Source: Saprospiraceae bacterium
GTDB lineage: Bacteria; Bacteroidota; Bacteroidia; Chitinophagales; Saprospiraceae
Direction of reading: 5' to 3'
Assembly: GCA_028285545.1 (NCBI GenBank)
Contig: JANQPA010000050.1
Location: 62,001 to 126,000 of the forward strand
Length of the DNA stretch: 64,000 nucleotides
Part shown: one piece after another, positions 9,730-14,570 of the stretch
Numbering within the stretch: the stretch's first letter is position 1
Layout: each line of letters begins with the position of its first letter
The notes under the pieces: generated by a model
Told to the model about the DNA's origin: nothing
Seen by the model: only the letters and a program-made list of their open reading frames with translations
Databases searched by the model: none
Translations under genes and position numbers: made by a program

Positions 9730-10866
9730 CTAAATCAATTCTTGTTCGTTCAATATTTTTTCAATTTTTCTTAACTGATTTTCATATGAGTGATTGATTG
9801 CATATGTGAGTCTGGATTCTTTTTTTTCAGGTGTATTGAGTTCTATCCAATTGCATAATGCTTTTTTAAATAATAAAGGTAGATTTTTATTAGAATAGTC
9901 ATCTGGCATATTCAATAACTCTAATCCATTATAAACACTTAAGAAATTACTTATAACAATCTTTCCGGTGCTTAGATATTCCATGATTTTATGAGAATTA
10001 TCAGCATTATAATATTTGTTTTTTTTGTAGATGGCTAAATATGCTTGAATAATGTTATTGTACTGGGTAATTTCTTCTTGGGAAATTAATCCATACAGTT
10101 TTACATTTTGTGCATTTTTTAAAAAGGAAATAAATGTTTTTAAGGGCTTATTCCTTTTTTCAGACCTATTTAACTCATATGGGCCAAAAAAATGAAAGGT
10201 CAAATGAATGTTTTCTCGAATTATTTGGCTTAACACTTCTCGGTCTATTGAACCATTTTTCAGATTTCCAATGTAGCCAATTTGATTAATTTCAATTTTC
10301 TCAGAATGATTATTCGCTGTTAACTTATTATATTCTCCTTTGGCTATTTCCAAGTAAGTCTCACATAAACCATGATTTATATAAAAGGTGGGAATCTTTA
10401 AGTGGCTGTGAGTATTTAAAATTATGTTTGAAACCGAAAAAATGATATCCGGCTTTTTTTCTATAGGTACTTTATCTCCTTGATCTACTGGATGGAAAAT
10501 ATTTAATTTTGCCTGGAACGGAGCCAAACTTTTGAATAAAAAATTACAATCAAAATCCCAAACAATATCAATTGGCTTATCAATGGCTCGACCAATTCTT
10601 ATCGCATGCCAATTCATGAATCTTTGAAACAGGGAGGGCCACTTAAATTTTAAAAAATAAGGTATTAATATGTTGAAGTGAACAAAATATAAATTTTTAT
10701 ATTTTGTACTTGCTGTAATTCTGATTTGAGTACTTATACCTTGAGTAGAAGGGGAAAGGAAATATACTCTATTGTTCCGTTTAGCTAATTCAATGGCATA
10801 GTAGTGTTTAGAGAGTTTCATTTTTCCCCAAGGCTGTGGAGAAAGAATGAGAATATTTTTATTAAT
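9730..10866 (-). CDS. GT-B glycosyltransferase, tandem paralogue; probable ATT start
   Basis: The first ATG (10821) gives 363 residues starting MKLSKHYYAIELAKRNN. That lacks the first beta strand that the neighbouring paralogue (10,866-11,999) has. The frame remains open upstream as I-NKNILILSPQPWGK before this Met, matching the paralogue's N-terminus NKTILVISPQRWGKM almost residue for residue. The only start candidate at the right place is ATT at 10866-10864, overlapping the last base of the upstream TAA; it gives 378 residues against 377 in the paralogue. Shared motifs are the FHPVD box, INHGLC, IGYIGNLKNG and HKIMEYLSTGKIVISN. These are GT4-like, resembling teichuronic-acid TuaH-type transferases. 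If ATG is the true start, the Rossmann strand would be lost. Confidence 0.8.
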   Translation of the reverse strand: MNKNILILSPQPWGKMKLSKHYYAIELAKRNNRVYFLSPSTQGISTQIRITASTKYKNLYFVHFNILIPYFLKFKWPSLFQRFMNWHAIRIGRAIDKPIDIVWDFDCNFLFKSLAPFQAKLNIFHPVDQGDKVPIEKKPDIIFSVSNIILNTHSHLKIPTFYINHGLCETYLEIAKGEYNKLTANNHSEKIEINQIGYIGNLKNGSIDREVLSQIIRENIHLTFHFFGPYELNRSEKRNKPLKTFISFLKNAQNVKLYGLISQEEITQYNNIIQAYLAIYKKNKYYNADNSHKIMEYLSTGKIVISNFLSVYNGLELLNMPDDYSNKNLPLLFKKALCNWIELNTPEKKESRLTYAINHSYENQLRKIEKILNEQELI

Positions 10867-11999
10867 TAAACTTCTAATTGAGAAAGAATTTTTTCTATCC
10901 TACTAATCTGTAATTTATAGGTGTTTTCAAGTGCAAAATCTCTTCGAGTTTGCATGGCTTTTGGGCTATTGTATTCCTTTAGATTATCAATGGTCTCCTT
11001 GAATAGCTTAGGTAATTGATCATTATTATCTCTTTCAAGTACCATTCGAATCAACTCCGGGTGTTTACTGAAAGTAGTAACATTGTTGGAAATGATGACT
11101 TTTCCAGTACTTAGGTATTCCATTATTTTATGGTAATTAGTTCCTTTACTTTGATCTTTTTGAACATCGTAACAGATCAAAAACGCATCCATTTGATGCA
11201 GACATTTGGCTAATTCAGGAGGAGGTTTCGGTCCATGAAGAATTACATTTGGTTGAATTTTTAAAAATTCGATGAATCGATTGTTACTAAAATTTCCACC
11301 TATATTCGATTGTTTAGTATTGTAAGTTCCCCAAAATTCAAAAATTAAATTTGGATGATTTGTGATGATTGATTCGAATGTATCAGTATCTATTTCTGGT
11401 CGGAGTAAATTACCTATATACCCAATCCTAGTATTGGTATTGGAATAGACTTGTTGCTTCAAGCCTTCTTTTACAAAATAATTACTTAAGCCATGATGTA
11501 CATGGACTTTTTTTATTTTTAAATGATCAAAATTAGATAGGATTTCATTAGTGACGGAAAAAATAATATCTGCAGTTTTTCCGGTCTGAATTTGATAAGG
11601 ATAAATGACTTCATCCACAGGGTGAAATATGGTAAATCTGGCTTTAAAACATTTTAAATTTGAATATAGATTAGGCTCAAAGCTCCAAACAATATCCAAT
11701 GGATGTCCTAATTTTTTTATTACTTTTCTTATTTCAAATCTTACGAGAAAATCATATAGCCACCTTAATTGAAAACGAATGAAATATGGGAATGAGGGCT
11801 TGTAAGTAATTATCTGTACATTCTCAGCATTACCTTGCTCAATTTTAAATTTTTCGGCTGCATTTTTGTGGGGTGGATTCAAGAAATAAACTTTGTTTCC
11901 GAGCTTAGCTAATTCAAGTGCGTAATGTTGTTTTGACAAGTGCATTTTCCCCCATCTTTGCGGAGAAATAACCAGAATAGTCTTATTTTTTAAATTCAT
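10866..11999 (-). CDS. GT-B glycosyltransferase, tandem paralogue
   Basis: 377 residues. The N-terminus is MNLKNKTILVISPQRWGKMHLSK. Later come IVWSFEPNLYSNL near 125, FTIFHPVDEV near 140, HHGLSNYFV near 178, RIGYIGNLLRPEIDTD near 200 and YHKIMEYLSTGKVIISNNV near 300, the donor-binding helix. It is colinear with the next gene downstream, a clear tandem duplication with diverged sequence, so the two enzymes may add related sugars in sequence. Its ATG overlaps the upstream aminotransferase stop as ATGA. The family resembles TuaH-like GT4 transferases; donor unknown. Confidence 0.85.
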   Translation of the reverse strand: MNLKNKTILVISPQRWGKMHLSKQHYALELAKLGNKVYFLNPPHKNAAEKFKIEQGNAENVQIITYKPSFPYFIRFQLRWLYDFLVRFEIRKVIKKLGHPLDIVWSFEPNLYSNLKCFKARFTIFHPVDEVIYPYQIQTGKTADIIFSVTNEILSNFDHLKIKKVHVHHGLSNYFVKEGLKQQVYSNTNTRIGYIGNLLRPEIDTDTFESIITNHPNLIFEFWGTYNTKQSNIGGNFSNNRFIEFLKIQPNVILHGPKPPPELAKCLHQMDAFLICYDVQKDQSKGTNYHKIMEYLSTGKVIISNNVTTFSKHPELIRMVLERDNNDQLPKLFKETIDNLKEYNSPKAMQTRRDFALENTYKLQISRIEKILSQLEV

Positions 12000-13099
12000 G
12001 GGGTGTAGAATATCTTTATCTGTTCTGCCACATAATCCATCATTTCAAAAGTTAATTCAGGAAACATTGGAATAGATAATATTTCCTTTTGTGCTTGGGC
12101 TATCTTCGGAAAGTCTTTCTCATTTTTATTTAAATAACCATAGGCTTTCAAAAAGGGGAGTGGAGTAGGGTAATGAATGGCAACACCAATCCCCTTTTGT
12201 TCTAAAAACGCTTTTAATTCATCTCTTTTTTGTGCTCGGATAACATAAAGATGATAGGTATGTTTTGTCCCTTGTCTTACCTTAGGAATTTCTACGTCTT
12301 TAACATCCGACAAGATTTGATCATAATATCTGGCATTGTTAATTCTTTTTTCAGTCCATTCTAAAATAGAGGGCAACTTTGCTGATAAAATAGCAGCTTG
12401 AAGTCCATCAAGTCTACTATTCATGCCTTCTATTTCATGGAAATGTTTTTTCAAGGCTCCATGATTAGCGAACATTCTCATTTTGTTTGCTAACTCATTG
12501 TTATTTGTTAAAATACAACCTGCATCCCCATATGCTCCGAGATTTTTACCAGGGAAAAAGCTAAATGTCCCTGCTTCTCCCCAGGCTCCTGCTCTTTTTT
12601 CCTGATATTCAGAAAAGTGTGATTGGGCACAGTCTTCTAATAAATAGAGGTTATATTTTTTACATAATTCGGTAAGCCCTTTCATGTCTGACATTTGACC
12701 ATAAATATGGACAGGGATGATGGCCTTGGTATTTTCAGTAATCTTTTCTTCAATTTTGTCAACATCAATGGTGAAAAATTCATCTATATCGACAAAGACA
12801 GGTTGGGCTCCTGTTTGAGTAATCATTTCAGAAGTGGCAATCCAACTATGAGCACTAGTGATGACCTCGTCTCCGAGACCAATATTCAACATTTTTAAAG
12901 CAATAAAGATAGCATCCGTGCCATTTCCTACGCCAATACAATGTTCAACACCATAAATTTCCCTGAAGGCATTTTCAAAGTCATTAACATACTTTCCTTT
13001 AATGAAAGCGGTATCATTAATAACATTTTGAATGGCCTGATCAATTTCAGGTTTGATAGATAAATATTGACTCTTTAAATCAACAAAGGGGATTTGCAT
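11996..13099 (-). CDS. DegT/DnrJ/EryC1 3-keto-sugar aminotransferase, WbpE/FdtB-like
   Basis: 367 residues. The N-terminus MQIPFVDLKSQYLSIKPEID is the opening of the 3-keto-sugar aminotransferase group (WbpE, FdtB, DesV). VGNGTDAIFIAL near 57-68, LLEDCAQSH near 153-161 and FSFFPGKNLGAYGDAG with the PLP lysine near 185 are all present. It follows directly an acetyltransferase and a WlbA-like dehydrogenase gene (13,103-14,570). This is the same set of three activities as WbpB, WbpD and WbpE, which convert UDP-GlcNAcA to UDP-2,3-diacetamido-uronic acid. A dTDP-3-amino-sugar product is an alternative. A second WbpE-like gene lies at 37,953-39,080. Confidence 0.87.
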   Translation of the reverse strand: MQIPFVDLKSQYLSIKPEIDQAIQNVINDTAFIKGKYVNDFENAFREIYGVEHCIGVGNGTDAIFIALKMLNIGLGDEVITSAHSWIATSEMITQTGAQPVFVDIDEFFTIDVDKIEEKITENTKAIIPVHIYGQMSDMKGLTELCKKYNLYLLEDCAQSHFSEYQEKRAGAWGEAGTFSFFPGKNLGAYGDAGCILTNNNELANKMRMFANHGALKKHFHEIEGMNSRLDGLQAAILSAKLPSILEWTEKRINNARYYDQILSDVKDVEIPKVRQGTKHTYHLYVIRAQKRDELKAFLEQKGIGVAIHYPTPLPFLKAYGYLNKNEKDFPKIAQAQKEILSIPMFPELTFEMMDYVAEQIKIFYTP

Positions 13100-13102
13100 G
13101 AA

Positions 13103-13567
13103 TTATAGCTTTCGGATCATTTCGGCAGGATTGCCAGCATATATTCCTGATACAGTAATATCTTTTGTTACTACTGCCCCAGCACCAATTACTACTTTAT
13201 TACAAATTTCAACGGGCAAAATAGTTGCATTGGAACCGATACAAACCTCATTACCAATCGTCGTTTTTTGCCATAAAGATTGATCTCCTTTCGCAGGGCC
13301 TCCAATTTGAAAGAGATCATTAATAAACATAACTCCATGAGCAATAACACAATCGTCTCCAATGACCACAAGTTCACATATAAATGAATGAGACTGAATT
13401 TTACATCTTTTACCTATGGCGACTCCTTTTTGGATTTCTACGAATGGGCCAATAAAGGAATCATCTCCAATACTGCATTCATATAGGTTGCTAGGTTGAA
13501 CGACTTTTACATTCTCTCCAAACGAAACATCTCTGATTCCTACCTTATATAATTTGGGGTGCGGCAT
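13103..13567 (-). CDS. Hexapeptide N-acetyltransferase, WbpD/WlbB-like
   Basis: 154 residues from ATG 13567 (MPHPKLYKVGIRDVSFGEN). A TTG at 13594 would add nine residues; both overlap the 3' end of the dehydrogenase gene (stop at 13545). Left-handed beta-helix repeats run throughout: NLYECSIGDDSFIGPFVEI, GVAIGKRCKI, FICELVVIGDDCVI, TTIGNEVCIGSNATI and KVVIGAGAVVTKDI, ending YAGNPAEMIRKL. It fits an acetyl-CoA-dependent N-acetyltransferase acting on the 3-amino group made by the next gene, and is shorter than the WbpD copy at 28,028-28,606. Confidence 0.85.
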   Translation of the reverse strand: MPHPKLYKVGIRDVSFGENVKVVQPSNLYECSIGDDSFIGPFVEIQKGVAIGKRCKIQSHSFICELVVIGDDCVIAHGVMFINDLFQIGGPAKGDQSLWQKTTIGNEVCIGSNATILPVEICNKVVIGAGAVVTKDITVSGIYAGNPAEMIRKL

Positions 13568-14570
13568 AAACGGCAGCTCTATAAATTTTGTCAATAATTT
13601 CTACAGTTTTTAAACCTTCATAAGCATTGGTCATAATGGAAGCTCCCTGGGTTAACACATTCACCACATTTTCATAAACCTTATCATGATTGGACATAGA
13701 GCCTTGATAATGACCATATTGATTAGGAGGATTTCCTTTTGGAAGATCTTTAATTTCGTAATCTTTGATATTCTGATATTCCAATTCATTTAAGTATTGT
13801 CCTCCTATTTTTATGGTTCCATTTTCTGCAAATATGGTTAGGGATCCTTCCATATTTTTATCATAGCTATTAACCGTATAATTAATAGTTCCGATTGCTC
13901 CATTATAAAACTCTAGTATCGCTGCACCGGTATCCTCAAATTCAATTATTCCTTCATGAGAATAGTTTTTTCGAATAGCCTGCACATATTTAACGTCTCC
14001 AATTAACCAATATAATAAATCAATAAAGTGACTGAATTGAGTAAAAAGGGTGCCACCATCCTGTTTTGCTGTCCCTTTCCAAGAATTTTCATAATATTTT
14101 TCGTTACGATTCCAAAAGCAACTGAGTTGGATAGAATAGATTTTTCCAAGCGTACCATTATCAATTAGCTCTTTAATTTTAGCAACTGGCGGATTAAATC
14201 TATTTTGTTTTACAATAAACAACCTTTTATTCTTTCTTTCTGCTGTTTTGATCATTTCTCCACAATCTTGTACTGAGATAGCCATGGGCTTTTCACACAG
14301 TACATTAAAACCTGCATTGAGACACATAATACTATGAGAGGCATGGAGTCCATTGGGGGTGCAAATTGCTATCAAGTCAAGATTATCAACTTCTGATAAT
14401 AGGTCGCTCAAATTATAGAACGCAGTTGCTCCATATTTTTCACAAAGAGACTTTGATTTTTCGGGAATGATATCACAGACCGCCTTTAGAACTCCAAATT
14501 TCTGAATGTGTTCAGCGTGCCTTTTACCAATTCGGCCACAGCCTATGATAGCAAAGTTTAGTGATTTCAT
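13545..14570 (-). CDS. Gfo/Idh/MocA NAD-dependent sugar 3-dehydrogenase, WlbA-like
   Basis: 341 residues. NAD-binding FAIIGCGRIGKRHAEHI at 6-22 and the EKP motif NVLCEKPMAI near 95-104 are clear. Then come LFIVKQNRFNPP near 127, FWNRNEKYYENSWKGT near 160, DGGTLFTQFSHFIDLLYW near 180-196 and NMEGSLTIFAENGTIKIGG near 255. From memory this is the pattern of the Chromobacterium violaceum WlbA type, which oxidises C3 of UDP-GlcNAcA. The paralogue at 27,045-28,031 is of the Pseudomonas WbpB/Bordetella WlbA type. It is the first gene of a dehydrogenase, acetyltransferase, aminotransferase trio. Confidence 0.85.
   Translation of the reverse strand: MKSLNFAIIGCGRIGKRHAEHIQKFGVLKAVCDIIPEKSKSLCEKYGATAFYNLSDLLSEVDNLDLIAICTPNGLHASHSIMCLNAGFNVLCEKPMAISVQDCGEMIKTAERKNKRLFIVKQNRFNPPVAKIKELIDNGTLGKIYSIQLSCFWNRNEKYYENSWKGTAKQDGGTLFTQFSHFIDLLYWLIGDVKYVQAIRKNYSHEGIIEFEDTGAAILEFYNGAIGTINYTVNSYDKNMEGSLTIFAENGTIKIGGQYLNELEYQNIKDYEIKDLPKGNPPNQYGHYQGSMSNHDKVYENVVNVLTQGASIMTNAYEGLKTVEIIDKIYRAAVYAAPQII

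Follow-up and report, generated by a model that had tools for sequence, protein, structure and literature searches.

Where does translation of a glycosyltransferase begin when its reading frame holds no canonical start codon at the place where homology needs one? The question is raised by GT2, the second of two tandem glycosyltransferase genes in a Saprospiraceae bacterium whose assembly (GCA_028285545.1) is a 10.2 Mb draft in 129 contigs. We analyzed a 64,000-nucleotide stretch of contig JANQPA010000050.1 (positions 62,001 to 126,000), hereafter the window, and positions are those of the window unless another locus is named.

Gene arrangement at the GT1/GT2 locus

GT1 and GT2 are minus-strand genes within a polysaccharide-biosynthesis cluster, and the two tandem paralogues are 38% identical. 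The upstream GT1 (10866–11999) starts with ATG, encodes 377 aa and ends in a TAA at 10866–10868. GT2 lies directly 3' of GT1 and encodes a TuaH-like GT-B glycosyltransferase with its stop at 9730; its best start candidate is an ATT at 10878 (gene at 9730–10878). The first ATG of GT2 comes only at 10821, and homology needs protein from 10863 at least.

Four-base overlaps of the ATGA/GTGA type, typical of translationally coupled operons, crowd the junctions of the cluster (e.g. 11996–13099 with 10866–11999, both minus strand). In stretches of the host genome totaling 362 kb, from which the genome statistics were drawn, the −4 (ATGA) overlap was the commonest (n = 11 vs. n = 3 for the −1 overlap), as it is in other prokaryotes (PMC10666635). 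Elsewhere in the cluster, an acetyltransferase-like ORF on the minus strand (13103–13594, first start TTG) overlaps the preceding Gfo/Idh-like gene (13545–14570) by ~50 bp, and its real start may lie further downstream.

Absence of a canonical start codon

The nearest in-frame stop 5' of GT2 is a TAG at 10900–10902, and no ATG, GTG or TTG occurs in the GT2 frame between this stop and ATG 10821 (10899 to 10821). If codons are numbered so that the first Ile in ILILS (10854) is 0, translation of the frame gives D R K N S F S I R S L I N K N I L I L S P Q P W G K M, where the first Ile is codon −8 (ATT 10878), the Arg after it codon −7, the second Ile codon −4 (ATT 10866), and the Met codon +11 (ATG 10821). 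The run from stop to first start, 26 codons, is the longest among the 53 window ORFs of at least 160 aa. When 20 other window ORFs were read 5' of their first start and scanned with Pfam, no domain match began before the first canonical start, most matches stopping short of the N-terminus.

To place GT2 within its family, we tabulated 139 loci, ~125 of them distinct. A canonical start (ATG, GTG or TTG) lies 5' of strand β1 in all of these distinct relatives, GT2 being the sole exception found. Nearly all of them start at codons −2 to −12, and five start further 5' in long open frames (L020, L027, L112, L123 and L128).

Residues upstream of the first ATG belong to the protein

Residues 2–15 of GT2, numbered with ATG 10821 as Met16, have a mean identity of 70% to 54 relatives, compared with 34% for the rest of GT2. 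Ser9 and Trp13 are invariant and Lys3 nearly so in an 18-sequence alignment, and in a 55-sequence alignment Trp13 is invariant and Lys3 and Ser9 nearly so. AlphaFold predicts a GT-B fold (mean pLDDT 93.7), with an N-terminal Rossmann domain that opens at β1 (residues 4–8 of P0001, NILIL; codons at 10843–10857), which lies wholly 5' of Met16. Foldseek matched the model to the solved GT-B enzymes glycogen synthase, MshA, BshA and PimB' with E values of 1e-10 to 1e-13. The family models named were NCBIfam NF047676 (TuaH) and Pfam PF13692/PF13524 (group 1 GT-B). Of the 55 alignment members, 34 match NF047676; GT2 itself scores 43.6 bits, far under the equivalog cut-off of 550, and is a distant relative of TuaH, not TuaH itself.

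In the first-pass annotation, GT2 was said to lose its first β strand if started at its first ATG, and the residues encoded upstream were said to align with the N-terminus of the paralogue. The position of β1 in the model bears out the former; as for the latter, 14 residues of the extension, NKNILILSPQPWGK, match GT1 NKTILVISPQRWGK at 10 positions. A start at ATG 10821 (10819–10821), with a shorter but active enzyme, would use the earliest ATG, GTG or TTG that the frame offers, the one that gene callers will pick, but at the cost of β1 and the near-invariant Lys3, Ser9 and Trp13. In the alignment this codon encodes the conserved internal Met of a WGK-M motif that GT1 has in common with many relatives (L012 and L043 read PQPWGKM), and it is the start of no relative. 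Among host starts its leader ranks at the 2nd percentile, and a predicted RNA hairpin (10818–10850) includes the codon in its paired part. We consider ATG 10821 extremely improbable as the true start and dropped it. The hairpin was also considered as a regulatory device and set aside, because relatives on average pair at the same site; it is probably a by-product of coding SPxxWG.

Because ATG 10821 is not credible, the family requires the upstream residues and the frame offers no canonical start for them, the comparison indicates that GT2 must either use a near-cognate start or have lost its start. Of the 30 alignment columns with conservation of 95% or more among relatives, GT2 keeps 29, and the gene has no internal stop, so GT2 is either still made or was lost very recently. 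In the event of a recent start-codon loss by substitution, GT2 would have been functional until lately and would now yield little or no full-length protein. One substitution would be enough, the intact paralogue GT1 could cushion its effect, and other family members decay (L034, L050; see below). No other lesion is found across 363 codons, however, so any such loss must be very recent, and we regard it as rather unlikely.

Somewhat less probable again is that the GT1/GT2 junction was miscalled or misassembled, which would hide a true canonical start at −8 or −7. That GT2 stands alone among ~125 members, that the assembly is a draft of many contigs and that one base suffices all favor an error, but no further disrupted frame was seen in GT2 or its neighbors, and consensus errors are uncommon in short-read drafts. 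A start lost recently, or a miscalled base, accounts for the GT2 DNA as well as initiation at a near-cognate codon does.

Position of the candidate start

The start had been placed in the first-pass annotation at ATT 10866 (10864–10866, codon −4). This codon is indeed in frame and shares A10866 with the GT1 TAA (10868–10866), a 1-base overlap, but the upstream extension does not begin there. The frame stays open for 11 further codons, to the TAG at 10902–10900, and holds a second in-frame ATT at codon −8 (10876–10878), from which GT2 would share 13 bases with GT1. An in-frame ATT occurs by chance in 41% of 11-codon coding stretches without ATG, GTG or TTG (362 kb of host genome), and for this reason the presence of an ATT alone proves nothing. 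A Leu at −5 was considered as a sign of coding 5' of 10866 and dropped, since the GT1 TAA in that register forces a hydrophobic xTA codon (Leu, Ile or Val).

We compared the two ATT codons by the start positions of relatives and by their leaders. In alignment A3, the start lies at −7 in 22 of 54 sequences and at −8 in 19 of 54. Several in-frame ATTs exist in GT2, and the one at −8 matches one of these two main start positions, whereas the one at −4 does not; at −7, GT2 has AGA (10873–10875), which is not a start codon. Codon −4 serves as the start in one relative only (L062, ATG), and its equivalent is an internal Ile in L146 (GTG AAA TTG ATT AAT AAA, VKLINKT) and L005 (MEFINKT). Read from ATT 10878, the protein would begin (M)RSLINKNILILSPQ, and the reading (M)RSLINKN(ILIL) conforms to the MxxLxNKT pattern common among close relatives (e.g. 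MSALRNKT, MANLENKT and MPDLRNKT). With a leader matrix built from 169 host ATG starts, ATT 10878 outscored 97% of internal ATTs and ranked at the 69th percentile of those host starts, whereas ATT 10866 outscored 71% and ranked at the 22nd percentile. A smaller matrix from 34 stricter host starts placed them at 21% and 3%, respectively, with the order unchanged and the absolute values soft. This smaller matrix has the features expected of Bacteroidota leaders, namely A at −6 and an A-rich stretch from −14 to −10 (PMC6847099).

If ribosomes terminated and reinitiated at TAATT, starting from ATT 10866, they would use a −1 overlap, a known coupling geometry (PMC10666635), at a site predicted to be unpaired (0.87), and the whole of β1 would be kept. 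Against this, a −4 start is almost absent among relatives, two of which have an internal Ile at the equivalent codon, and the leader falls at the 22nd percentile. We regard the use of this codon as distinctly improbable; the first-pass annotation was probably wrong by four codons, 10878 being the better fit to both relatives and leaders. Other near-cognate codons just inside β1, such as ATT 10854 and 10848, have A-rich leaders that rank at the 63rd and 92nd percentile, respectively, among host starts, but either would cut into residues 4–8 and give a protein shorter than any relative (shortest start −2 or −3), making their use very improbable.

Both ATT 10866 and ATT 10878 have the geometry of termination-reinitiation, with the candidate start overlapping the upstream stop or within a few bases of it, so that termination-reinitiation between GT1 and GT2 is possible on the layout of the junction. 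We also considered a fused GT1–GT2 protein made by a −1 slip on an A6 run close to the end of GT1 (10894–10889). From 10899 onward the −1 frame runs into GT2 without a stop, and GT–GT fusions of ~760 aa exist (L067 and L068), but the GT1 frame has no X XXY YYZ heptamer, no stimulatory structure is predicted there (z +1.37), and the linker would be far shorter than in natural fusions. Lacking a slippery heptamer or stimulatory structure, the frameshift fusion was dropped as scarcely credible.

Search for orthologues and family members

No close orthologue of GT2 was found in a scan of the whole of GTDB r220 or in 946 sampled genomes, the best identity being about 40–41%, and the gene is absent from the one sister genome in the genus. 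The relatives, the nearest at ~41% identity, use ATG, GTG or TTG rather than a conserved ATT.

The searches also returned family members with features of their own. Two matches from other genomes carry in-frame stops (TAG in L034, TGA in L050), which suggests occasional decay of family genes. A methyltransferase-like gene adjoins two loci (L067:427–2727 and L068:837–3122, minus strand) at which a pair of GT domains of the GT2 family is naturally fused in one protein of ~760 aa, whereas in the window they form a tandem gene pair. An ATT at −7 that overlaps an upstream TAA (TAATTTTG) and is directly followed by a TTG at −6 occurs in L043 and in L086, apparently a duplicate of it; the arrangement resembles the TAATT in the window, and TTG at −6 is the likely start. 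A bacterial-looking member was present in L113, a contig labeled as a Nitrososphaerales archaeon MAG, possibly through a binning error or transfer.

The host infC gene (L065, G000:C119) was considered as a precedent for an ATT start. It has no ATG before the conserved core, and a TTG-start reading, (M)AKRGKRDNRR, fits best. A non-ATG start of IF3 is also found in other bacteria. As infC appears to start with TTG, it was dropped as a precedent.

A candidate AUU start at the family position

The reading that we put forward, possible if short of probable, is that GT2 is translated from 5' of its first ATG, that its start at the family position (−8, 10878–10876) is now ATT in place of ATG, GTG or TTG, and that initiation there is weak and perhaps coupled to GT1. 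Ribosomes, aided by the way GT2 overlaps the 3' end of GT1, would start at ATT 10878 with fMet and at low efficiency, giving (M)RSLINKNILILSPQPWGK...; both the use of this codon and the coupling are proposals. We further suggest that codon 10878 was once ATG, possibly within a common ATGA overlap. A single base change would then have removed both an earlier TGA of GT1 and the ATG of GT2, leaving GT1 three residues longer, to its present TAA. Some near-cognate initiation, with all codons taken together, appears moderately likely.

AUU and AUA starts are known in E. coli (infC and pcnB) and in S. aureus (infC, AUA; cvfC1, AUU; ccpN, AUA) (PMC13009471). GT2 resembles these genes in having no canonical start where homology needs one and, in its place, a codon that departs from ATG only in its last base (T or A). 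The E. coli and S. aureus starts are backed by experiments, and those of S. aureus are conserved and have extended Shine-Dalgarno motifs; the GT2 candidate, by contrast, is found in a single genome, without conservation and with a Bacteroidota-type leader that has no Shine-Dalgarno motif. With positions inside the 3' end of GT1 or adjoining it, the GT2 candidates are like the −4 (ATGA) or −1 (TAATG) reinitiation pairs (PMC10666635), but known pairs use canonical start codons and the GT2 candidate is ATT.

The yield from such a start may be low. Natural AUU and AUA starts give ~10% of AUG at S. aureus sites with extended Shine-Dalgarno motifs (PMC13009471), and in a 64-codon test the efficiency of ATT was ~0.3% of that of ATG (Hecht 2017, as quoted in PMC10666635). 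It is rather unlikely, in our estimate, that a functional GT2 starts at AUU without Shine-Dalgarno pairing, rescued by an A-rich leader and coupling to GT1 and kept at a small fixed fraction of GT1. IF3 discriminates against AUU. Because reinitiation also drops when IF3 is overproduced (PMC2268962), coupling would not be an automatic rescue of an AUU start.

Implications

GT2 is plausibly a candidate instance of a known rarity, the AUU start, and involves no new mechanism; a fresh start loss or a sequencing error would instead make it an ordinary case. Bacteroidota ribosomes do not use Shine-Dalgarno pairing, and initiation at ATT 10878, if true, would be an AUU start in such a phylum. In contrast, the newly mapped AUU and AUA starts of S. 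aureus rely on extended Shine-Dalgarno motifs (PMC13009471). It would also mean that gene callers trim at least 15 residues off the catalytic domain of GT2.
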